Positions 1 through 11,929 of a stretch of DNA of 20,197 bases are shown in pieces. This DNA comes from a virus. Made by a program: the position numbers and the translations under genes. The first letter of the stretch is position 1, and every line of letters begins with the position of its first letter. The notes beneath the pieces are model-generated. The model searched no databases. It saw nothing but the letters and a program-made list of their open reading frames with translations, and was not told the DNA's origin. The stretch is from positions 1 through 20,197 of the IMG/VR virus record IMGVR_UViG_3300025292_000108; one strand, 5' to 3'.

Positions 1-924
1 CTTGGCCGAACCCGAACGGTCAGCGTGACCGGCGAGCATGACCTGCGTACCCGTGCAACCACGGTTGTAGGCGCTGATCGCGTTGTCGAGCGTCGAAGCC
101 GCTTCCGGCGTGATGTCCGACTTATCCCAGTCGAAGTACACGATGTACGGTCCCGGGGCGCATTCCACGACCGGCGGCGGCGGCGGAGGCGGCGGGGGCG
201 GCGGCGGAGGCGGCGGGGGCGGCGGAGCCGGTTCCACCGGAGCCGGAGCACCGCCGAAGTTGAACGTCAGCGTGCCGAGGATCGAGTGCGAACGGAAGCG
301 CGTCGAAACGTCGCGGCCGAGCTGATCGACCAGATCGATGTTGTCGGCATTGAAGAAACGATACTTCAGACCCACGTCGATGCTGTCGCTCAGCGGAGCG
401 CGGACGCCCGCAATCGCCTGCCAGGCGAAGCCCGTGTCAGAATCGTCGAGGAAGTTACCGGCATAGACGGGTTCGACCGAAACGCGGGCGACACCGGCAC
501 CACCGCCGACAAAGCCCTGGAGGCCGTCGTCATCGCCGAAGTCGAGCAGGCCGTTGACCATGAAGCTCAGCGCGTTCGTATCGCCGGCGAGGTCGAATGC
601 GCCGGTAGCCAGCGCACCCGAGCCGGCAACCGACTGCGGGATGCCCGGGGTCGCGAAGCGGCCCGACTTGATGTCGGCTTCACGGAAACCGACTTCGACT
701 TCCGCGCGGAAACCACCGAAGTCATAGCCGACAGTGCCTTCGACGTCATAGCCAGCGCGATGATCAAGCGTACCGGCATTGTTGAAGGCGCCGATATCGA
801 GATCCAGGTCCTCGACAAGCATTGCGCCCGCACCAACACCCACGTACCAGGAGTCGTCGCGCGCCAGAGCAGGCGATGCCAGGGCGGTGGAGGCCAATGC
901 CATAGCGACGGCAAGCTTCCTCAT
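1..924 (-). CDS. OmpA-family outer-membrane protein, 3' end cut by window edge
   Basis: An open frame of 308 codons runs off the left edge without a stop. It begins with a clear Sec signal peptide (residues 1-21, ending SPALA before RDDSW). Residues about 22-225 look like an eight-strand outer-membrane beta-barrel, rich in alternating aromatic and Gly residues. A run of 18 consecutive prolines (residues 234-251) then leads to the start of an OmpA-like peptidoglycan-binding domain (VYFDWDKSDIT, residues 262-272, and GHADRSGSAK at the edge). Such proteins tether the outer membrane to peptidoglycan. The start at 924 is preceded by AAAGGGG at a good distance. The gene is transcribed in the same direction as the phage-like cluster but is separated from it by 130 bases and reads as a separate chromosomal gene. 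The family assignment is firm; the exact subfamily is not. Confidence 0.93.
   Translation of the reverse strand, partial: MRKLAVAMALASTALASPALARDDSWYVGVGAGAMLVEDLDLDIGAFNNAGTLDHRAGYDVEGTVGYDFGGFRAEVEVGFREADIKSGRFATPGIPQSVAGSGALATGAFDLAGDTNALSFMVNGLLDFGDDDGLQGFVGGGAGVARVSVEPVYAGNFLDDSDTGFAWQAIAGVRAPLSDSIDVGLKYRFFNADNIDLVDQLGRDVSTRFRSHSILGTLTFNFGGAPAPVEPAPPPPPPPPPPPPPPPPPPVVECAPGPYIVYFDWDKSDITPEAASTLDNAISAYNRGCTGTQVMLAGHADRSGSAK
172..225 (-). repeat. Poly-proline codon tract with 21-base repeat
   Basis: Eighteen uninterrupted proline codons form the linker of the OmpA-family protein. On the plus strand most units are CGG, with AGG and GGG at regular places, so a seven-codon unit (CGG CGG AGG CGG CGG GGG CGG) occurs about twice in tandem. 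The interruption pattern suggests the linker grew by duplication of the 21-base unit. Confidence 0.9.
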
Positions 925-1518: not shown

Positions 1519-3696
1519 CTATGTCAAAGGCAGCGAAAGCGGCGGCGACAGCGCAAGATCGCCCACCTGGCGGATTTCGATTAGGCAGCCGGACGGCAAG
1601 GCCGAGCGCTCGCTGGCCCCGATGACAAGCGAAGGCGAGGCCCGCTCCCACGGACCTATCCCCGGCACGGGCGGCGACAGCTCGACATGCCATGCCTCAC
1701 GGCTTTCGCCGGTGGGCTGATCGACATGGTCGCGCCAGCCCGCATCGACACGACTGCGTCTTGTCCAGCCGATCGTCACGTCGCCCCCGCCATCGACGCT
1801 GATCTGCCCATGCACCGGAGCCAGAGGCCGGATGGCTTGACCGACCGCCGGAAAATCGACCTCGTTCAGGTCTGTACCGCCGCGCGCCACCCACTGGAGA
1901 AGCGCTCCGCCGCCCTCGGCCAGCCCGGCGATGGCGTCGGGCAACAGCAACACGGCCGGATCGTCGAGCAAGACGAAGGGCTCGCCCGCCGCATGGTTTG
2001 TGCCCGCCTCGGTCCCGGCACGCCCGCGAAGCAGCCGCGACAGGCGCCAGGCAGTCGGCCCCATCCGATCGGCGACGCCGAACTGCAACAGTTCAGCACC
2101 CACCATGGCCTGGTTTGCGCCACCGAGCAGCGCAGCATCGCCAACCGATTCCAGCGTCATCGCGGGATTTACCAATTCGACCACCACAGTTCCCGACAGG
2201 TCGAAGAGGCAGTCATTTCCCGCGGCCAACGGCTCCCCAAGCCGGCCCAGCGCCGCCGCGGGACGCACGGGTCCTACGGGAATGGGCTCGGCACCGACGG
2301 CGGGAACAACCCAGCAATCGGCACCGCGCCAGCCATTATTGCTTCCGGCTCCGGCGATTGCGATCCGCGGCGCCGCCGCCGCCGGACTGCCCGGATTGGG
2401 AAGATCGAAGAGGCAAACCGTGCCCGTAGCGTCGGGCCAGTCGGGCGCGTTCACCGGCACGCCGGGCTCGGCCGGGAGGTCAACGGCGGGCAGCGGCTGA
2501 TGGCGCGCGAGTTCGAGCCATATTTCGTTTCCGCGTACCGTTCTCCCGGCCAGTCGCCAGCCGCTGCCATCGGCCAGCCTCACAACCTGGCCGATCGTCA
2601 GCGCCAGTGCCGCAATGTCGCCCTGCCAGAGCAATGACTCGCGCCCGTCTGCGGCAGCGGCAGCGAGCCGCTGGGCCAGCGCCCGCGCCGACGTCGCCGG
2701 CAACACGGCGGGCAGATCGATCCGCTCCTCACGCACGCCGCCGCCCGCGACCTCGCTCGCCTGCTGGCCCAGCTGATAATCCCGTTCGGGCTCATAGTGC
2801 CGCAGCCGTATCGTACCCGGCAGCGACGATAGCGGGGCGCGGCGATGCTCGATCAGGTCGCCCGGGGCCTGGGTTCGCCGCGCCGCGCGAAAATCCGACA
2901 ATGCCAGCTCGTCCATGGCGGGTGGCGGCGGCCCGAGACGCCAGCCTTCCGGTCCGCTCGCCAGACGGATGCCGTCTGCCTCGAACAACGGTGCGAGCGC
3001 GTCGCGCGCACGGTCGCCCGAAGCCGCATAACCCGCAAAGGCCCATTCGCCATCGCAGCGCCCCTCCTCTCCGAGCAGGCCGTTGCCGACCAGCCCCGCG
3101 TCGACGGTCCCCGCATCGGCCTCGACCTCGAAGGTCAGCGACGGAATCCGGTTGCCGAATGCCCCCAGCTCGAGCTCCTCGAACACGGCATAGGCGAGCC
3201 CGCGGAACGCACTCGCCGACGCCATACCGACCGCCGACGCGATCAACGGATCGACGGCCTGATCCTCGCCTCCGTCATGCCAGCGAAATGTGCAGCGCTC
3301 TTGGAACGCCCCGCTCGATCCGCGCAGCAGATTGCCATCGGCCCAGATACGACGGATCGCGCGGATCGGGCGCGACGACAGCGCGACCGCGAGCGACACC
3401 GCATAGCTATATTCGGTTGTCGACGGCCGCCCCTTGCCGCCGCCCTGTTTATTGCGCCTTTCGATCAGGTCGGTCGCCCAGATCACGCTGCCGGCAACGC
3501 GCATCGTCCCGAACAGCTGCGGAACCTGCTGGCCATAGGTCGATGCCTGAATCTTCAAATCTGCAAGCCGCGGCCCCTCGCGCCCCTTTGGCTTGAAAAT
3601 CTGCGCGTCGATCTGTTGTCCGACCGCGGCACCGATCGCCGCGCCCACCGGTCCGCCGACAATCCCGCCGACCACCGTCAGTACCAGAGTCGCCAT
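1519..3696 (-). CDS. GTA g15-like tail tip / baseplate protein (short form, no TIM barrel)
   Basis: This 725-aa protein corresponds to RcGTA g15, the large tail-tip protein. Residues 1-30 are a Gly/Ala-rich hydrophobic stretch (GGIVGGPVGAAIGAAVG). Residues 48-80 carry the family signature (ASTYGQQVPQLFGTMRVAG followed by SVIWATDLIE). FGNRIPSLTFEV (180-191) marks the junction that in RcGTA-type proteins precedes a TIM-barrel domain. Here the sequence passes almost directly to the phage-tail-3-type beta domains and to the C-terminal fibre-binding region (AMVGAELLQFG, then WRLSRLLRGRAGTE). RcGTA g15 is roughly 1,300 residues from memory, so this is a much shorter version. The ATG at 3696 is preceded by GGGGAG; in-frame upstream extensions would run back into the g14 gene. 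It probably forms the tail tip and the attachment point for receptor-binding parts. Confidence 0.85.
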   Translation of the reverse strand: MATLVLTVVGGIVGGPVGAAIGAAVGQQIDAQIFKPKGREGPRLADLKIQASTYGQQVPQLFGTMRVAGSVIWATDLIERRNKQGGGKGRPSTTEYSYAVSLAVALSSRPIRAIRRIWADGNLLRGSSGAFQERCTFRWHDGGEDQAVDPLIASAVGMASASAFRGLAYAVFEELELGAFGNRIPSLTFEVEADAGTVDAGLVGNGLLGEEGRCDGEWAFAGYAASGDRARDALAPLFEADGIRLASGPEGWRLGPPPPAMDELALSDFRAARRTQAPGDLIEHRRAPLSSLPGTIRLRHYEPERDYQLGQQASEVAGGGVREERIDLPAVLPATSARALAQRLAAAAADGRESLLWQGDIAALALTIGQVVRLADGSGWRLAGRTVRGNEIWLELARHQPLPAVDLPAEPGVPVNAPDWPDATGTVCLFDLPNPGSPAAAAPRIAIAGAGSNNGWRGADCWVVPAVGAEPIPVGPVRPAAALGRLGEPLAAGNDCLFDLSGTVVVELVNPAMTLESVGDAALLGGANQAMVGAELLQFGVADRMGPTAWRLSRLLRGRAGTEAGTNHAAGEPFVLLDDPAVLLLPDAIAGLAEGGGALLQWVARGGTDLNEVDFPAVGQAIRPLAPVHGQISVDGGGDVTIGWTRRSRVDAGWRDHVDQPTGESREAWHVELSPPVPGIGPWERASPSLVIGASERSALPSGCLIEIRQVGDLALSPPLSLPLT

Positions 3697-3707
3697 CGCT
3701 GTCTCCC

Positions 3708-4109
3708 CTATGAAAGCCGCCATCGAGGCGCCGACCGGGTCGTCGCGTCGAGCGGCGTTTCCACCACCCGGCGCAGGCCGGCATGCGCATGGACGAATGT
3801 CGCCCGTCCCAGCAGGCCGAGATGGAATTGCCGCGCCGGCTGGACGAACAGGGCGATGTCTCCGGCCACGATTTCGTCGATGACAGGCACAAAGCCGGCG
3901 ACCGTCAGCGCGGTTTCGACCTGCACCCGTGACCAGCCTCGCAGCGGATAGCCGACCGGCCGTATCAGACACCGCCCTGTCGTTGCATAAGCCGCCGCGA
4001 CCAGCCCGACGCAATCGAGCCCTGTCGCGGGATCGCTTCCCTGCAACCGGAACGCTACCCCGACCATCGTCCGCGCTGCTTCGAACGCACGCGCACCGAC
4101 GTCATCCAC
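3708..4109 (-). CDS. GTA g14-like NlpC/P60 tail peptidase
   Basis: This 133-aa protein has the NlpC/P60 catalytic layout: Cys33 in GLDCVGLV, His96 in QFHLGLL, and a third polar candidate in the FVHAHAG segment (His107 or His109). In GTAs and siphophages this enzyme sits at the tail tip and cuts peptide cross-links in peptidoglycan during DNA entry. The start is a GTG at 4109 that overlaps the end of the g13 gene by eight bases. No good Shine-Dalgarno precedes it, so translation is probably coupled to g13; an ATG four bases inside is out of frame. The length is normal for the phage subfamily, which lacks the extra SH3 domains of cellular NlpC/P60 proteins. Confidence 0.9.
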   Translation of the reverse strand: MDDVGARAFEAARTMVGVAFRLQGSDPATGLDCVGLVAAAYATTGRCLIRPVGYPLRGWSRVQVETALTVAGFVPVIDEIVAGDIALFVQPARQFHLGLLGRATFVHAHAGLRRVVETPLDATTRSAPRWRLS

Positions 4110-4923
4110 CGGGATAACGCGTCAGCAGATCATTGCCGGGCAGGTGCGCCTCACCGCGGAAGTTGACCGCGTTGGCAAAACGGTCGCGACAGGTCGCAAG
4201 CTGCTTGTCGCAACCTTCGGTCAGGCGCACGCGTGCGGGGCCGTCTGGCGCGAACGGCGGCGCCTCGGCGAGATGCAGTGCCGCGCCGTCGGCCACGACC
4301 ACCGGACTCGCCAACCCGCAATTGGCCCCCTCCATCCAGAGCAGCTCGCCAAAGGCCATGCCGGTCACCGGCGCGTCAAGCGTTACCACGCGACCGTCGA
4401 CCGCGACCACATTGCGCATATGCGTCCGCGGCCCCAGATCGACGCGGCACGCCCGATCGCCCAGCACCGCGCGACACGAGGGCGAGGTTGCCGGGCACAC
4501 CGGCCGGTCAAGCCATCGCGTCACGCCCTGCAGCTCCGCGACAAAGGCTGACCCGCGGCGCTCGATTGCCCCCAATGATCCTTGCGCAACGATCACCGGC
4601 GCCAGCCCGGGCGCGCTCCAGTCGGTCACGAACAATTCGAGTTCCGCACCATCCCAGCGCCCTGCAGCGAGGTCGCGGGCCGCAATCGTGTCGCTGGCAA
4701 CGGCCCCTTCCAGATCCATCGTCACGGCATCCAGGCGATCGCTCGTCTCGAGCGCCGATGGCTTCATTCCCGGTGCCGCGCGGTACATTATGCCGCCGAC
4801 GGTCATGTCGCGGTCGTGCGAGGTCAGCCCGATCACGACGCCGTCGCGCCGCGACAGCCGCCAGCACCAGGCGAGCGTCACCAGCTCCTCGCGCATCCAG
4901 TCGGGCGCCCGCTCCATCACCAT
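4102..4923 (-). CDS. GTA g13-like tail hub protein (DUF2163)
   Basis: This 273-aa protein matches the DUF2163 / GTA g13 family throughout, with SHDRDMTVGGIMYRAAPG near residues 35-52 and a C-terminal TEGCDKQLATCRDRFANAVN segment (235-254). The family forms the hub of the tail tip. Four to five cysteines are well placed for a metal or iron-sulfur cluster: Cys143, Cys150, Cys159, Cys238 and Cys245. Hub proteins of this class, including lambda gpL, are known to carry iron-sulfur clusters; that this one does is inference. ATG 4923 has GAGGTG about eight bases upstream. A second ATG at 4917 forms a TGATG junction with the g12 stop and is an alternative start that would remove only two residues. 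Confidence 0.9.
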   Translation of the reverse strand: MVMERAPDWMREELVTLAWCWRLSRRDGVVIGLTSHDRDMTVGGIMYRAAPGMKPSALETSDRLDAVTMDLEGAVASDTIAARDLAAGRWDGAELELFVTDWSAPGLAPVIVAQGSLGAIERRGSAFVAELQGVTRWLDRPVCPATSPSCRAVLGDRACRVDLGPRTHMRNVVAVDGRVVTLDAPVTGMAFGELLWMEGANCGLASPVVVADGAALHLAEAPPFAPDGPARVRLTEGCDKQLATCRDRFANAVNFRGEAHLPGNDLLTRYPGG

Positions 4924-7241
4924 GGCGCCCGCACCTCGACCAGGGGCACGCCCGCCATCTCCCCCGCCAGAAACGTCGCACGGCTCACTTCCAGCCGGTC
5001 CTCGGCAAAGCGAACCGGCACGTCGAACAAATAACCTGCGCGTACGATGATGCCGACCCCCGGCGCGGCATCGAGCAGTATCTCGCCCTCGTCCGTCACC
5101 AGAAATGCAGCCGTTTCCAGTCCGTCGACCGATATGCGTACGCTGCCCTCCACCGGAAGGCGGATCCGGCGCAGCTGCTCGGCATCGCCGCTCCCGTACC
5201 GCTTCACCAGCGCGAACTGCCGCCGTGTACCGTCCCCCTCACCGAGCAGCTGATCGACCGCCGTCGGCAGCCCGCCATCCGCCGCCGAGCTGCAATCGAA
5301 CGGATCGCGAAACCGGAACGCGCGCGCTGCGCCGCGCCGCGCGCGAAAGAAATCGGCGAGCGCCCGCACATCGGCTTCGGACCGTATTCCCGGTCCCGCG
5401 TCATAGCGCATCCGCGCCTCGGCCCATTCGCTCGCGCGCTGTTCGTGCCCCGATGGCGAACTCACGATCTGCGTCGAAAATTCGGTCGCAACCATCGCTT
5501 CGCGCCCGATCGCGAGCGGGAAATCCACTGCATCGAAAGCCTGCACCGCATCCTCCCCGTCAAATGTCACGAAGCCGTCGCGCGCGATCTGCGGCAGTGC
5601 CCAGACAAAGGTCCGCCCCACCCCGGCCTTTCGCGCGCGCGCCGCCGCATCGGCGATCGCCGCCCACTGCGCCCGATCCTCCGCACGCAGCACGAATCCC
5701 GAAAAATAATGCTGATTCTCAGCAGGATAACCGAGCCGCAACGTCATCGCGGCACGCGCTCCGGCGGTCTCGGCACCGCGACCGCCAGTCACCCAGTCAT
5801 AATCCTCGAGCTGCAGCACATCGAAGGCCGGCGCCGCCCACCCCGGCGGCACATTCGCGCGCCGCAGCGCCGGCGCGGCCGGGTCGAGCACCGTCGGCAG
5901 ATAGACGAGCACATGGCTCACCAGCCCCGATGTCCCCGCCTCGTCGCGCGCCGCCGCGATCAGTGCCGCGGTCGACCCTGCCAGCAGCGCCCCAAGCGCA
6001 TCGAGCATCGCCAACTGCGACGTGCCCAGCGTCCCGCGCACATCGGCGATCGGGACGCTCGCCGCCCCCAGTACCGCGGTCGTCGCGGCGTCATAGGCGC
6101 AGATTCGTCCCCCGCTCGCGACCCACCACCAGGGCTCGCCGACCTGGAACTTCGGTTCCAGCCCCGCCGCCGCCCCGATCGCGACGAATGCGCGTGCGAC
6201 GAGCTGCAAATATTCCATGGCCGTCGCGTTCGCCGGCGACAGCAAGGTCGAAGGCGGCTCCCACCCGGTCAGCGCCGGAGCGCCGTCGCTCGCCCGCTGT
6301 TTCCAGTCTTCCCGGCAATAGGCATCGAACAATTCATAGGAGAGCGACCAGATCACGCCCAGCCCCGCCTCGCGACACGCCGTCGCAAACCCCGCATGCC
6401 ACGCCGCACAGGGCGCGTTGGTCGCACCGCCCGCAAGGCTCGCGTAAAAGTCGCCGTCCGACGTTTCGAGCCGCATATAATGGCTCATCCCCACATAATG
6501 GACGATGTCGCCGCGATAGCCGAGTTGCACGATCTGCCGCACCAGCCGCGCCGGCGTCAGGTGATAGCTGTCGTCGTAGCCGCTCGCGATGCAAAGCCCA
6601 TGCTCGGGCAACGTCACGTCGCCGATCGCGAGTACCGACCCCGATCCCGAAGCGGCGATCCCGCTCATCTCGGCCCAGCCCGCTACCGGCGACGCCAACA
6701 CACCGTCGCTGCCATCGTAAACGGGCGGCACCAGCGACACGAACATCCGGTCGATATCGCCCGCCCACACCGGATCGGCCTCGCCCGGCGGCATGAAGCC
6801 GCCGTCAAGGTTGTCGAAATCGAGACTGACGAGCGCATCCTCGCCCGACCCCGTCGCATAGTTCCACAGACGCACATACCAGGCGCGCGGGTTTCCCGCA
6901 GCATCGCGCCCCTCGATCGTCAGCGTCGGCCCGTGCAGCGCGTCGAGCGGCTTCACCCCGCCCGAGCGCCAGCGGAACCGGAGCTGCACATGCCGGAAAT
7001 CGCGACTGGTCTCATAGGCGAGCAGCGGATGATCCCAGCGATCCTCGGCCTCCCAGATCAACCCCGCCAGATCCTGTTTTCGATAGAAGACCGCCTCGAC
7101 GCGCAGCACGCCGGGGGCATCGCCCGTCACGCTCGCCATCATCGGGCGCGCAAAATCGACCGTCCAGAAGCGCGGGTCGAACCGCTTGAGCCAGCCCTTG
7201 CGATGATGCGGCTCCGCCTCCGCAACCAGCGCCCAGCCCAT
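4917..7241 (-). CDS. GTA g12-like DUF2460 protein with large N-terminal TIM-barrel-like extension
   Basis: The last ~205 of 774 residues (from about 565, VQAFDAVDFP to LVEVRAPW) are the DUF2460 / TIGR02217 distal-tail domain, which in RcGTA is a stand-alone protein of about that size. The N-terminal ~560 residues are extra. Residues 1-180 look like a beta-sandwich (VRLWNYATGSG, FVSLVPPVYDG). Residues ~195-560 alternate hydrophobic strands and helices as in a TIM barrel, with conserved-looking GEPWWW (Glu369) and LQLEDYDW (Glu479) at strand ends. These resemble the acid pair of glycoside hydrolases, but activity is unproven. A structural TIM barrel, as in phage tail-sheath-like proteins, is the alternative. 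The start ATG 7241 forms a TGATG junction with g11 and has GGGAGAGGA upstream; a TTG at 7244 is less likely. Confidence 0.86.
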   Translation of the reverse strand: MGWALVAEAEPHHRKGWLKRFDPRFWTVDFARPMMASVTGDAPGVLRVEAVFYRKQDLAGLIWEAEDRWDHPLLAYETSRDFRHVQLRFRWRSGGVKPLDALHGPTLTIEGRDAAGNPRAWYVRLWNYATGSGEDALVSLDFDNLDGGFMPPGEADPVWAGDIDRMFVSLVPPVYDGSDGVLASPVAGWAEMSGIAASGSGSVLAIGDVTLPEHGLCIASGYDDSYHLTPARLVRQIVQLGYRGDIVHYVGMSHYMRLETSDGDFYASLAGGATNAPCAAWHAGFATACREAGLGVIWSLSYELFDAYCREDWKQRASDGAPALTGWEPPSTLLSPANATAMEYLQLVARAFVAIGAAAGLEPKFQVGEPWWWVASGGRICAYDAATTAVLGAASVPIADVRGTLGTSQLAMLDALGALLAGSTAALIAAARDEAGTSGLVSHVLVYLPTVLDPAAPALRRANVPPGWAAPAFDVLQLEDYDWVTGGRGAETAGARAAMTLRLGYPAENQHYFSGFVLRAEDRAQWAAIADAAARARKAGVGRTFVWALPQIARDGFVTFDGEDAVQAFDAVDFPLAIGREAMVATEFSTQIVSSPSGHEQRASEWAEARMRYDAGPGIRSEADVRALADFFRARRGAARAFRFRDPFDCSSAADGGLPTAVDQLLGEGDGTRRQFALVKRYGSGDAEQLRRIRLPVEGSVRISVDGLETAAFLVTDEGEILLDAAPGVGIIVRAGYLFDVPVRFAEDRLEVSRATFLAGEMAGVPLVEVRAPW

Positions 7242-7825
7242 CAATCCTCTCCCTGGGCGACCGCGCGCCGCACCGCGCGTGCCAGCTGCCGCCCCGTCTG
7301 CGCCAGCCTCTGCGGCTCGCTCCCCGCCTCGCCCCGGACATTTACCGTGATCGCGATGTTACGCACGGCCGCACCCGCGGCGTCGATCCGCCCGCTCGCA
7401 GTCGGCACGAACAGCTCGGGCCCGCGCTCGCCGACGCGATAGGCCCGTCCGGCGCTCACCGGCCCGCCTGTCGCGCGGCCCGGCGCGCCGAACAAGGCCA
7501 TCGCGATCGAGGTGCCGAGCGACAGCAGACCACCGCTCCCGCCGCCGCCCGACCCGCCGCCGCCCGCCGCTGCATTGATACCGTTGGAAATCGCCGCGCG
7601 CGCGATATCGGCCATCACCGACAGCGCGAGCCGCTTCAGATCCTCGAACCCCGTCTTGCCGCTGACGATCGCGCGTGACAGCGCCCGCTCGATCGCGCGC
7701 CCGGCATCCTCCGCACCGGCGACCAGCGGCCCGCCCAGTTCGGCACGCATCGCCGCGATATCGCGGCGGAACGCGCCCGTGTCGGCGCGTACCGCAACGA
7801 TCATTTCGTCGATCTCGTTATCCAT
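7241..7825 (-). CDS. GTA g11-like tail tape measure protein, very short
   Basis: This 194-aa protein has the C-terminal tape-measure signature RATGGPVSAGRAYRVGERGP (117-136) followed by ELFVP. Residues 1-80 are helical. Residues 88-99 are a glycine-serine linker (GGGGSGGGGSGG), and 100-113 are hydrophobic enough to insert in a membrane. Tape measure proteins set tail length and help form the DNA channel. Phage versions are usually several hundred to over a thousand residues, whereas GTA versions are near 200, so the length supports a GTA-type short tail. ATG 7825 has GGAGAG upstream and overlaps the chaperone gene by eight bases; the stop shares one base with the g12 start. Confidence 0.85.
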   Translation of the reverse strand: MDNEIDEMIVAVRADTGAFRRDIAAMRAELGGPLVAGAEDAGRAIERALSRAIVSGKTGFEDLKRLALSVMADIARAAISNGINAAAGGGGSGGGGSGGLLSLGTSIAMALFGAPGRATGGPVSAGRAYRVGERGPELFVPTASGRIDAAGAAVRNIAITVNVRGEAGSEPQRLAQTGRQLARAVRRAVAQGED

Positions 7826-8021
7826 CGGGAAATCTCTCCATCATCGCCGCGAGCAGAGAGCGATTGACGCCGGTATCGCCATCGACTTCGGCCCAGCCCG
7901 CCAGCACCGCGCGCACATCCGCCGGCGTTGCCGCCCAAAACACATCGGGGCGCCATCCCGCGACGCGTGCCATCACGCCCGCGAGCGCGATCGCCGCAGG
8001 TCCCAGCCGGTCTTCCGCCAC
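7818..8021 (-). CDS. Small phage tail assembly chaperone (g10.1 position)
   Basis: This 67-aa protein lies between the g10-like gene and the tape measure, the usual place for a tail assembly chaperone. Its pattern (GWRPDVFWAATPADVRAVLAGW, shared in parts with the TIGR02216 / phage TAC type) fits the chaperone family known from GTA clusters. Such proteins bind the tape measure before the tube polymerises. The start is GTG 8021, with AAGGA seven bases upstream, one base after the g10 stop. A nearby ATG (8026) is out of frame. The 3' end overlaps the tape measure start by eight bases. Confidence 0.8.
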   Translation of the reverse strand: MAEDRLGPAAIALAGVMARVAGWRPDVFWAATPADVRAVLAGWAEVDGDTGVNRSLLAAMMERFPDG

Positions 8022-8022
8022 T

Positions 8023-8334
8023 TCATCGTCCTTGCAGGATTTGCCCCAGCAGGACGCGCAGCGCCGGCGTCACCACCGCCAGCCCCTGCGCGACCGCTGC
8101 CTCGCCGACCGCTTCGCGCGTCAGCTCCTCCGGCCGCTCCTTCACGCAGTGCCAGAACAGGCACGCGAGCTCGCCCAGCCCCAGCCGCCCCTCGGCGGCG
8201 CGCTCGACCAGCGCGAACAGCGGGCCCAGTTCGGTTTCCGCCGCCACCAGCGCGGCAAAGCTCGGGCGCAATATATAGGTCCGCTCGCCGACACGCAGTT
8301 CCGCCTCGCCGCGCAATATGTTCGCACGGCTCAC
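8023..8334 (-). CDS. GTA g10-like tail assembly chaperone (gene transfer agent family protein)
   Basis: This 103-aa protein begins RANILRGEAELRVGERTYIL and continues with SFAALVAAETELGPLFALVER, the signature of the GTA g10 family. The following helical half (LGELACLFWHCV) ends in a short basic tail. Proteins of this family are proposed to assist tail-tube assembly, as the phage gpG-type chaperones do. The start is GTG 8334, which overlaps the g9 stop in the GTGA form, so translation is coupled to the abundant tube protein. No programmed frameshift site joining it to the next small frame was evident. Confidence 0.85.
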   Translation of the reverse strand: MSRANILRGEAELRVGERTYILRPSFAALVAAETELGPLFALVERAAEGRLGLGELACLFWHCVKERPEELTREAVGEAAVAQGLAVVTPALRVLLGQILQGR

Positions 8335-10412: not shown

Positions 10413-10568
10413 TCAGGGTTTCCGGACGATCAGCCGCCGGCCGGCTTCGCGCGGCAGCGACAGCGGCGTCTGCGGCGCAGCCGGTTCGGGGCCCGCCCAT
10501 TCGACCGCGAGATCGCGCCGCGCGGCATCGCCGAGCGCCCGCGCCGACAGCGCCGAACCATCGATCAT
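10413..10568 (-). CDS. 51-aa orphan protein in the fibre cassette
   Basis: This short frame encodes MIDGSALSARALGDAARRDL and ends with a basic tail (GRRLIVRKP). It is called a gene because its ATG overlaps the fibre gene stop as ATGA, because GGAGG lies five bases upstream, and because it exactly fills the gap to the fibre-tail adaptor gene. The protein has no signal peptide or membrane segment. It starts with a helical half and continues with a proline-rich stretch (GPEPAAPQTPLSLP). The family is not recognised. A small fibre chaperone or an internal minor structural peptide is possible but unsupported. Confidence 0.6.
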   Translation of the reverse strand: MIDGSALSARALGDAARRDLAVEWAGPEPAAPQTPLSLPREAGRRLIVRKP

Positions 10569-11929
10569 GCCGCCGCCTCCAACGCCCGGAGGCGCGCTTC
10601 CTGTGCCGCGATCAGGAACAGCGCCAGCTGGTCGATCCGGATACCGAAACGATTGCCCGCCGGGCGATCGGGTCCCGTCTCCCATTCGTCCCAGCACAAA
10701 AAGGCATAGGGGGTTCTTCCCGGCCGACCGCCCTCGCCGGCCGGATCGATCAGCCCCTCATCCGCCATGATCGCCCAGACCGCCTGCGCGCGAACGCCGA
10801 AATGCAGTCGCGCCCCGTCGGGGCCCTTGCGAACCACCGCGTCTTTCCACTGGAAGAAGCCAAGCTCCCGCAATATTCGCGCAGCCGCCCGCAATTCGGT
10901 CTTGCTTGCCGCGGCTCGCCATATCTTCTCGCGCTCGTCGGACGTGTTGATCGTGCCGGTGGCGGCATAGAGCGCCGACCATCGGTTGACCGCCACCCCC
11001 AGCGACTGGGCGTTGTCGCCGCCGGGGCGCATATAGGTGCCGTCGATGACCAGCAGCGTCGCGTCGGCGGTAGCATCATAGACCGACAGCGACGACTGGC
11101 TCGCATTGTGGATGCCCGACACCAGATCATAGACGCGCCCGCCCGCCGCACTGTTGCGGATACGCAGGCGCGCGACGATCTGGTCGGAGCCCGCAATTTC
11201 CAGTCGTGTAGCGGGATTTGCGGTGCCGATGCCGACCCGGCCCGACCCGGCGATCCGCATCCACTCGACGCCGCCCGCTGCAACGCCGAGGCTGTCGGCT
11301 CCGGGGCGGAACAGCCCGGTATCGGCGTCGTCGGCAAAACCGATCGCAGGCGCGGGCGCGGTTCCGTTCTCCGCTGCCAGCGCGCCACTCAGCCGGTGAC
11401 GCCCGCCGGCATCGCGAACCGCCAGGGCCGCCAGCGGCAGATTGACCCAGCCGGCGCCGCGGCGGACGGTCACCCTGTCGTCGACCTCGCCCGCTGCTGC
11501 GTCCGCGTGGCCGGTCGACAGCGGCTGCCTTGCGTCAATCGCTGCGGTCAGGCCCGCGACCTCTCCGCCGAGCGCGGTCACGCCTGCCGCAAGCGTCGCC
11601 GCCTGCGCCTCGCTGGCGGCGAACCACGCCGCCCCGACCGTCAGCGCGATCGTCTTGAGTCCCGCGGTGAAATCGACGCGCACGCCGCCGTTCGACGACG
11701 CGGCGACGACATCGCGAAGCAGCCGCCCGCTGCCATCGATCCGGCCGGTCCCGACCTCCCATTGTTCCGGGCGGGCGATGCCCGCCACCGCATAGTGAAA
11801 GGAAACACCGGGCGGTACCGCCCCGGCAAAGCGGCGATGGCCGGGCAAAGCGCCCGACGGCGTCAAGGGTCCGGTCCCGCCCTCCTCGGCGAGCTCGCGC
11901 ACCAGGTCGGCAAAAAAAGGGGTCGGCAT
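10565..11929 (-). CDS. Tail-fibre protein with S74-type intramolecular chaperone domain
   Basis: This 454-aa protein has three parts. Residues 1-105 are an attachment region, with FHYAVAGIARPEQWEVGTGR in the middle and ending GLKTIALTVGAAWF. Residues about 106-325 are shaft-like, with a helical stretch, GIGTANPATRLEIAGSDQIV (233-252) and repeats of short beta segments. Residues 328-454 are an S74 / endosialidase-type chaperone domain: TSDEREK with Ser330-Asp331 at the expected self-cleavage point, HFGVRAQAVWAIM (376-388), and the terminal helix beginning RIDQLALFLIAAQEARLR (431-448). Such domains trimerise fibres and then cut themselves off. ATG 11929 has AAGGA about ten bases upstream. The location right after the capsid gene is unusual for a tail fibre; a head fibre is an alternative reading. 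Confidence 0.85.
   Translation of the reverse strand: MPTPFFADLVRELAEEGGTGPLTPSGALPGHRRFAGAVPPGVSFHYAVAGIARPEQWEVGTGRIDGSGRLLRDVVAASSNGGVRVDFTAGLKTIALTVGAAWFAASEAQAATLAAGVTALGGEVAGLTAAIDARQPLSTGHADAAAGEVDDRVTVRRGAGWVNLPLAALAVRDAGGRHRLSGALAAENGTAPAPAIGFADDADTGLFRPGADSLGVAAGGVEWMRIAGSGRVGIGTANPATRLEIAGSDQIVARLRIRNSAAGGRVYDLVSGIHNASQSSLSVYDATADATLLVIDGTYMRPGGDNAQSLGVAVNRWSALYAATGTINTSDEREKIWRAAASKTELRAAARILRELGFFQWKDAVVRKGPDGARLHFGVRAQAVWAIMADEGLIDPAGEGGRPGRTPYAFLCWDEWETGPDRPAGNRFGIRIDQLALFLIAAQEARLRALEAAA

Follow-up and report, generated by a model that had tools for sequence, protein, structure and literature searches.

A phage N4-type tail-sheath module on the distal tail protein of sphingomonad GTAs

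The distal tail protein (Dit) encoded by g12 in a sphingomonad GTA cluster carries at its N-terminus an N4-type module, an all-β domain followed by a (β/α)8 barrel, and the megatron encoded by g15 in the same cluster is short and has no barrel. We consider it likely that this module is derived from phages, that six such barrels ring the end of the tail, where they bind and possibly cut a glycan of the recipient, and that they replace the GTA_TIM barrel. The feature is real, well bounded and ordinary within its bacterial order, and it is new in the context of a GTA tail; the domain families themselves were already known, and it is the exchange of barrel type, together with the change of carrier, that is of interest. 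Positions refer to the analysed window (the whole stretch of DNA, 20,197 nucleotides) unless stated otherwise, and are collected in Table 1.

Table 1. Coordinates of the tail-tip genes, domains and residues discussed in the text.
Feature	Position	Strand	Description and basis
g11	7241–7825	-	Short tape measure protein; TGA overlaps ATG of g12
g12	4917–7241	-	774 aa; NCTSP_N + TIM-barrel_NCTSP + DUF2460 distal tail protein (Dit)
NCTSP_N domain	6621–7190	-	All-β, g12 residues 18–207; PF23844 E 9.2e-95; AF2
TIM-barrel_NCTSP domain	5571–6608	-	(β/α)8 barrel, g12 residues 212–557; PF23845 E 2.8e-160; AF2; VIA
Barrel strands	g12 residues 216–221, 245–249, 295–301, 364–368, 441–447, 475–479, 510–513, 543–546		AF2
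Glu369 codon	6135–6137	-	GEPWWW; directly after strand 4 (AF2); invariant in 84 homologues
Glu479 codon	5805–5807	-	QLEDYDW; last residue of strand 6 (AF2); invariant in 84 homologues
DUF2460/TIGR02217 domain	4929–5531	-	Distal tail domain, g12 residues 571–771; PF09343 E 2.3e-70
g13	4102–4923	-	Baseplate hub; PF09931 + PF09356
g14	3708–4109	-	NlpC/P60-like peptidase; PF00877, weak, just under cut-off
g15	1519–3696	-	Short megatron, 725 aa; Phage-tail_3 + Rcc01698_C, without peripheral/GTA_TIM domain
FGNRIP junction in g15	3142–3159	-	Other megatrons carry ~350–710 extra residues here
gp65/gp64 barrel frames of phage N4 (L087)	2758–4011 and 4044–8192 (N4)

Results

Domain composition and predicted fold of g12

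A sequence-only reading of the window had proposed that g12 gained ~560 N-terminal residues containing a TIM-barrel-like pattern, and this was borne out down to the exact residue numbers. Three Pfam families span nearly all of the chain (hmmscan): NCTSP_N (315.7 bits) and TIM-barrel_NCTSP (533.5 bits), which exceed their curated cut-offs of 27 and together identify an NCTSP module, and a full-length DUF2460 domain (PF09343 positions 2–205 of 205; TIGR02217 197.7 bits against a cut-off of 136.65). The last of these matched the PDB entry for the RcGTA distal tail protein (6tba_6B, E 4.4e-39), and g12 lies between the tape measure and hub genes, as is characteristic of a siphophage or GTA distal tail protein. 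The frame starts at an ATG at 7241 and stops at 4917 (an alternative TTG at 7244 would give 775 aa).

An AlphaFold2 (AF2) model of g12, built on an 84-row alignment (mean pLDDT 91.6, pTM 0.83), comprises an N-terminal all-β domain and then eight barrel strands with intervening helices. Its best VIA-align match was N4 gp64 (Z 30.1, 297 residues, rmsd 2.2, 30% identity), giving substance to an earlier hint of likeness to phage tail-sheath barrels, and in comparisons with the PDB the barrel matched both N4 chains (gp64 E 1e-38, gp65 E 5e-16). Next by VIA-align were the GH153 domains of PgaB/BpsB (Z 22–23 over ~300–314 residues, 7–11% identity), β-amylases (Z 21–22) and members of GH35 and GH1 (Z ~20); Foldseek also places GH66 and GH31 among the barrel matches. 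The likeness to GH153 is at the level of fold, and no equivalence is drawn between Glu369/Glu479 and the catalytic Asp474 of BpsB. With its (β/α)8 barrel and conserved acids at the C-terminal ends of strands, g12 resembles the glycoside hydrolases in fold only. The R4C megatron (8gtc_M) was absent among the best 50 VIA matches listed for g12, which is uninformative either way.

A short megatron without a barrel

The g15 protein had been read from the letters as 725 aa with no barrel after an FGNRIP-like junction, and two lines of evidence agree. An AF2 model based on a 66-row alignment (pLDDT 87.0, pTM 0.73) contained no barrel, nor did a Pfam search of g15 detect a barrel family, and the best Foldseek matches were all tail-tip proteins (R4C megatron, JBD30, RcGTA megatron, phage Chi tail tip); a barrel hidden inside g15 was rejected on these grounds. 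Moreover, an FGNR-P type junction is present in the collected long megatrons as well as in g15, and the sphingomonad g15 profile aligns to long megatrons as two blocks flanking ~350–710 extra residues (residues 27–225 and 792–1314 of the 1316-aa protein of L172, 4–212 and 706–1218 in L181, 8–225 and 934–1441 in R4C), so that the piece missing from g15 sits just after FGNRIP. Given its tail-tip matches the short g15 looks ordinary, and it is the barrel-bearing domain of long megatrons that behaves as an insertion. Against the GTA megatron equivalog NF048004, g15 scored 374.9 bits in two separate stretches and did not reach the cut-off of 800; judged by this profile, the cut-off needs the peripheral domain, the core of g15 being homologous and the peripheral domain absent.

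Homology to RcGTA (Rcc01695, Rcc01698) and R4C extends over the DUF2460 part of g12 and, in the megatron, over the iris, adhesin-like, central and fibre-binding parts. In those two systems, however, g12 is a stand-alone protein of ~210 aa and g15 has 1304–1447 aa with a peripheral domain, described in R4C as mannanase-like, whereas here the barrel is of another family and sits on g12. In two further contigs (L183 and L184), g15 residues ~224–628 form a ~400-aa insert at the usual junction, with no Pfam match in L184, which was scanned; this is possibly a third kind of peripheral domain. Another (L185, 817–2838, minus strand) has a 674-aa frame in which the attachment region of the hub runs into the C-terminal part of a megatron, apparently a deletion relic of g13–g15.

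Origin of the g12 barrel

Two origins had been offered for the barrel, movement of a domain from g15 to g12 or recruitment of an unrelated one, and the data favour the second. When NCTSP barrels were compared with megatron peripheral domains, hhalign gave probabilities of 0.4% and 0.2%, with no profile match, and neither g12 nor g15 matched GTA_TIM (PF13547) by hmmscan at any E value up to 1. The acidic motifs also differ: members of GTA_TIM have GSE(L/M)RGLT and TExGCP ~170–190 residues apart, and the g12 barrel has GEPWWW and QLEDYDW 110 residues apart. The g12 module has, besides, its own N-terminal domain and is ~30–36% identical to proteins of Loki, phi92 and other phages; its phage relatives comprise 322 phage records, all but one with less than 60% identity, and its nearest kin are the coliphage N4 sheath subunits gp64/gp65 together with many phage tail proteins. 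From the null profile comparison, the differing motifs and the abundance of phage relatives it follows that the barrel was most likely recruited from the phage pool rather than being a GTA_TIM domain that moved over.

These same data led to the rejection of a transposition in which the GTA_TIM barrel of g15 moved to g12 in a sphingomonad ancestor and then diverged. We regard such a history as very improbable, even though the sizes are similar (~350–710 additional residues in long megatrons, ~560 aa gained by g12), the two barrels did not co-occur, and a very weak profile stretch pairs LVGTE of a megatron with the end of the strand-4 segment (QVGEP). Both barrels may nevertheless be distant members of one large glycoside-hydrolase barrel superfamily.

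The module on other carriers

Among phages the NCTSP module may be part of the distal tail protein or of the hub, stand alone, or be divided between two chains. Both Pfam families occur in Loki gp17, phi92 gp142 and Acinetobacter phage fJoAci04. Loki gp17 (LOKI_17) lies beside a separate Dit in a siphophage tail operon, although its module is fused to another C-terminal sequence rather than to DUF2460. A search of viral contigs with g12 alone recovered only sequences 60–87% identical to the window module, and an alignment query was used next. Fusions to the hub N-terminus were found in five siphophage-like viral contigs (L200, L202, L204, L206 and L207), where PF09931, the hub attachment domain, bears the module and three copies are expected, as against six on Dit. 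In L200, for example, the fusion (NCTSP_N, barrel, PF09931 and PF09356) has as neighbours a separate Dit of 209 aa and a g15 of 767 aa with no barrel; this contig, L204 and L207 share with the window both the module and a short g15, although their Dit is stand-alone.

In N4, barrel profile positions 4–46 fall in gp65 and 60–347 in gp64, with no overlap, a profile pattern which suggests one barrel made by two chains; the profile is split in the same way in L193, L196 and L197. The N4 sheath gp64:gp65 (PDB 9LC0, 9YF4) resembles g12 in having NCTSP_N and TIM-barrel_NCTSP, in conserving Glu369/Glu479 and in its six-fold arrangement, which for g12 is expected, but N4 spreads the barrel over two chains and clothes a podophage tail with it, whereas g12 is a single chain fused to Dit. 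In a barrel tree read as unrooted the hub fusions formed one group (100/100) and the Dit label needed three changes, so the module was relocated or fused more than once. Other arrangements were also seen: the module shares a chain with a SASA-type carbohydrate esterase in L194 (4185–7577) and L198 (3501–10505, here also with DUF2612), and in phage contigs L219, L221, L231 and L240 an NCTSP–Dit fusion is followed by a second, partly Dit-like protein.

Distribution of the two barrel types

A genome scan gave 457 relatives, of which 80 (58–86% identity to the window) were kept; all were Sphingomonadales by name or metagenome bins close to them. Every one of 15 genomes held a single DUF2460, in a frame of 760–1016 aa. 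More widely, 149 genomes sampled from the order gave DUF2460 in 75, of which 65 have it in a frame of 740 aa or longer, and GTA_TIM in none. A barrel on g12 with a barrel-less g15 is, by these domain searches, the rule in Sphingomonadales. Among 39 DUF2460-positive genomes, 16 had the NCTSP barrel, 14 had GTA_TIM and none had both, and the 16 had short g15 frames (708–872 aa); since these 16 are sphingomonads or come from a sample of the class, this exclusion mostly sets a single clade apart from others. At this tail tip the two barrels, both of sugar type but unrelated, appear to substitute for one another. The difference in g12 and g15 length in sphingomonad GTAs was noted in 2020 (PMC7360931); neither that paper nor the searchable literature was found to give a reason for it.

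Conserved glutamates and purifying selection

Two glutamates, Glu369 and Glu479, had been singled out as well-placed acidic residues. Both were invariant in 84/84 diverse homologues, down to 29% identity, and both are kept in the Loki, phi92, fJoAci04 and N4 gp64 proteins. Conservation also differed between the two ends of the barrel: with loop limits placed by eye on the DSSP string, mean entropy was 1.40 in the C-terminal-face loops and 1.86 in those of the opposite face, which are thus the less conserved (p 0.003). In glycoside hydrolases of clan A the two acids belong to strands 4 and 7; in g12 they belong to strands 4 and 6, and no catalytic mechanism can therefore be transferred from that clan. 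Conservation of many of these residues could also reflect the strong packing constraints of a structural barrel.

The module part of g12 is 62–67% identical in other sphingomonads, compared with 66% for the capsid, 62% for the portal, 52% for g13 and 42% for g15, and its two domains have dN/dS values of 0.19 and 0.22. The module is under purifying selection. Such slow change in an exposed part of the tail would be easier to reconcile with a conserved target, or with enzymatic constraint, than with rapid evolution in a contest over receptors.

A GTA cluster filed as a virus

The window (1–20197) is filed as a virus in IMG/VR and looks like a Sphingopyxis-type chromosomal GTA cluster: head–tail genes in g1–g15 order, on a bacterial chromosome, in single copy and conserved across species, as in RcGTA-like clusters. 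That the module is instead part of a decaying prophage remnant, and the cluster not a working GTA, seems to us scarcely credible: the filing as a virus record speaks for it, but the g12 frames are intact in nearly all relatives, DUF2460 is single in the 15/15 genomes above, dN/dS is 0.15–0.23 and the module is as conserved as capsid and portal. Many IMG/VR relatives of the window likewise seem to be pieces of GTAs. A gene at 10565–11929 (minus strand), flanked by the major capsid gene and g6, encodes a protein resembling a fibre and bearing an S74 chaperone of endosialidase type; such a gene inside the head–tail cluster was found at 15 Sphingopyxis loci (median 54% identity) and at only four other sphingomonad loci.

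Discussion

In RcGTA six copies of the distal tail protein assemble at the tail end; the N-terminal residue of this protein touches the baseplate, where the N-terminal attachment domain of the hub binds as well (PMC7296036). Because distal tail proteins form hexamers, six barrels should ring the tail end in sphingomonad GTAs, and by extension from the structures of RcGTA and R4C they would lie just above the baseplate. As the RcGTA Dit N-terminus and the hub attachment domain both meet the baseplate, modules on Dit and on the hub probably share one junction, in six and three copies respectively. The expected six copies per Dit ring suggest a collar rather than a full sheath. With the N4-type non-contractile tail-sheath module fused to the N-terminus of Dit, these barrels would bind, and possibly cut, a conserved polysaccharide of recipient cells; such handling of glycan would let the particle reach the outer membrane, and the NCTSP barrels would stand in functionally for the GTA_TIM/peripheral domain of many other alphaproteobacterial GTAs.

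A saccharide role is plausible because the structural neighbours of the barrel are glycoside hydrolases and because N4 and the phi92-like phages that carry the module depend on NGR; the barrel may also cut its saccharide. NGR is the surface glycan on which N4, Vequintavirinae and phi92-like phages depend (PMC8669472, PMC8594841), and the domain common to these phages has been reported as a predicted poly-GlcNAc deacetylase (PMC8594841). By VIA-align, however, the g12 model aligns with PgaB residues 312–669, the hydrolase domain of that protein, so the name ‘deacetylase’ was probably inherited from the two-domain PgaB.

N4 gp65 has been described as binding the outer-membrane protein NfrA, and the module may therefore be a structural or protein-binding scaffold. 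To our knowledge no enzyme activity is known for any member with an NCTSP barrel, and a literature search found no glycan hydrolysis assay of one and no report of activity for the module. A barrel serving as a structural and protein-binding collar, whether as stabiliser or as protein-receptor adhesin, and not acting on sugar would accord with this, and with the N4 sheath, which surrounds the tail, holds the plug in place and binds NfrA (PMC12633501, PMC12892993). We nevertheless think it unlikely, given that the invariant acidic and aromatic residues cluster at the barrel mouth, where the sites of glycoside hydrolases lie, that the nearest non-phage structures are glycoside hydrolases and that the domain-sharing phages have a common glycan dependence (PMC8669472). 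A bolder version of the glycan-handling role, which we put forward tentatively, is that the tail-tip ring of RcGTA-like tails is an exchangeable enzyme slot for two unrelated GH-type barrels, GTA_TIM on the megatron and NCTSP on Dit or hub, the latter belonging to an undescribed family of active polysaccharide hydrolases whose Glu pair lies on strands 4 and 6.

For annotation of phage tails it matters that a tail-tip barrel can sit on Dit, hub, megatron or two chains, and that proteins with the module are often annotated ‘glycoside hydrolase’, ‘capsid and scaffold protein’ or ‘deacetylase’. The barrel arrangement provides a concrete reason for the g12 and g15 length difference noted in 2020 (PMC7360931), links the GTA tails of a whole bacterial order with the sheath of phage N4, and yields testable predictions on what sphingomonad GTAs attach to.
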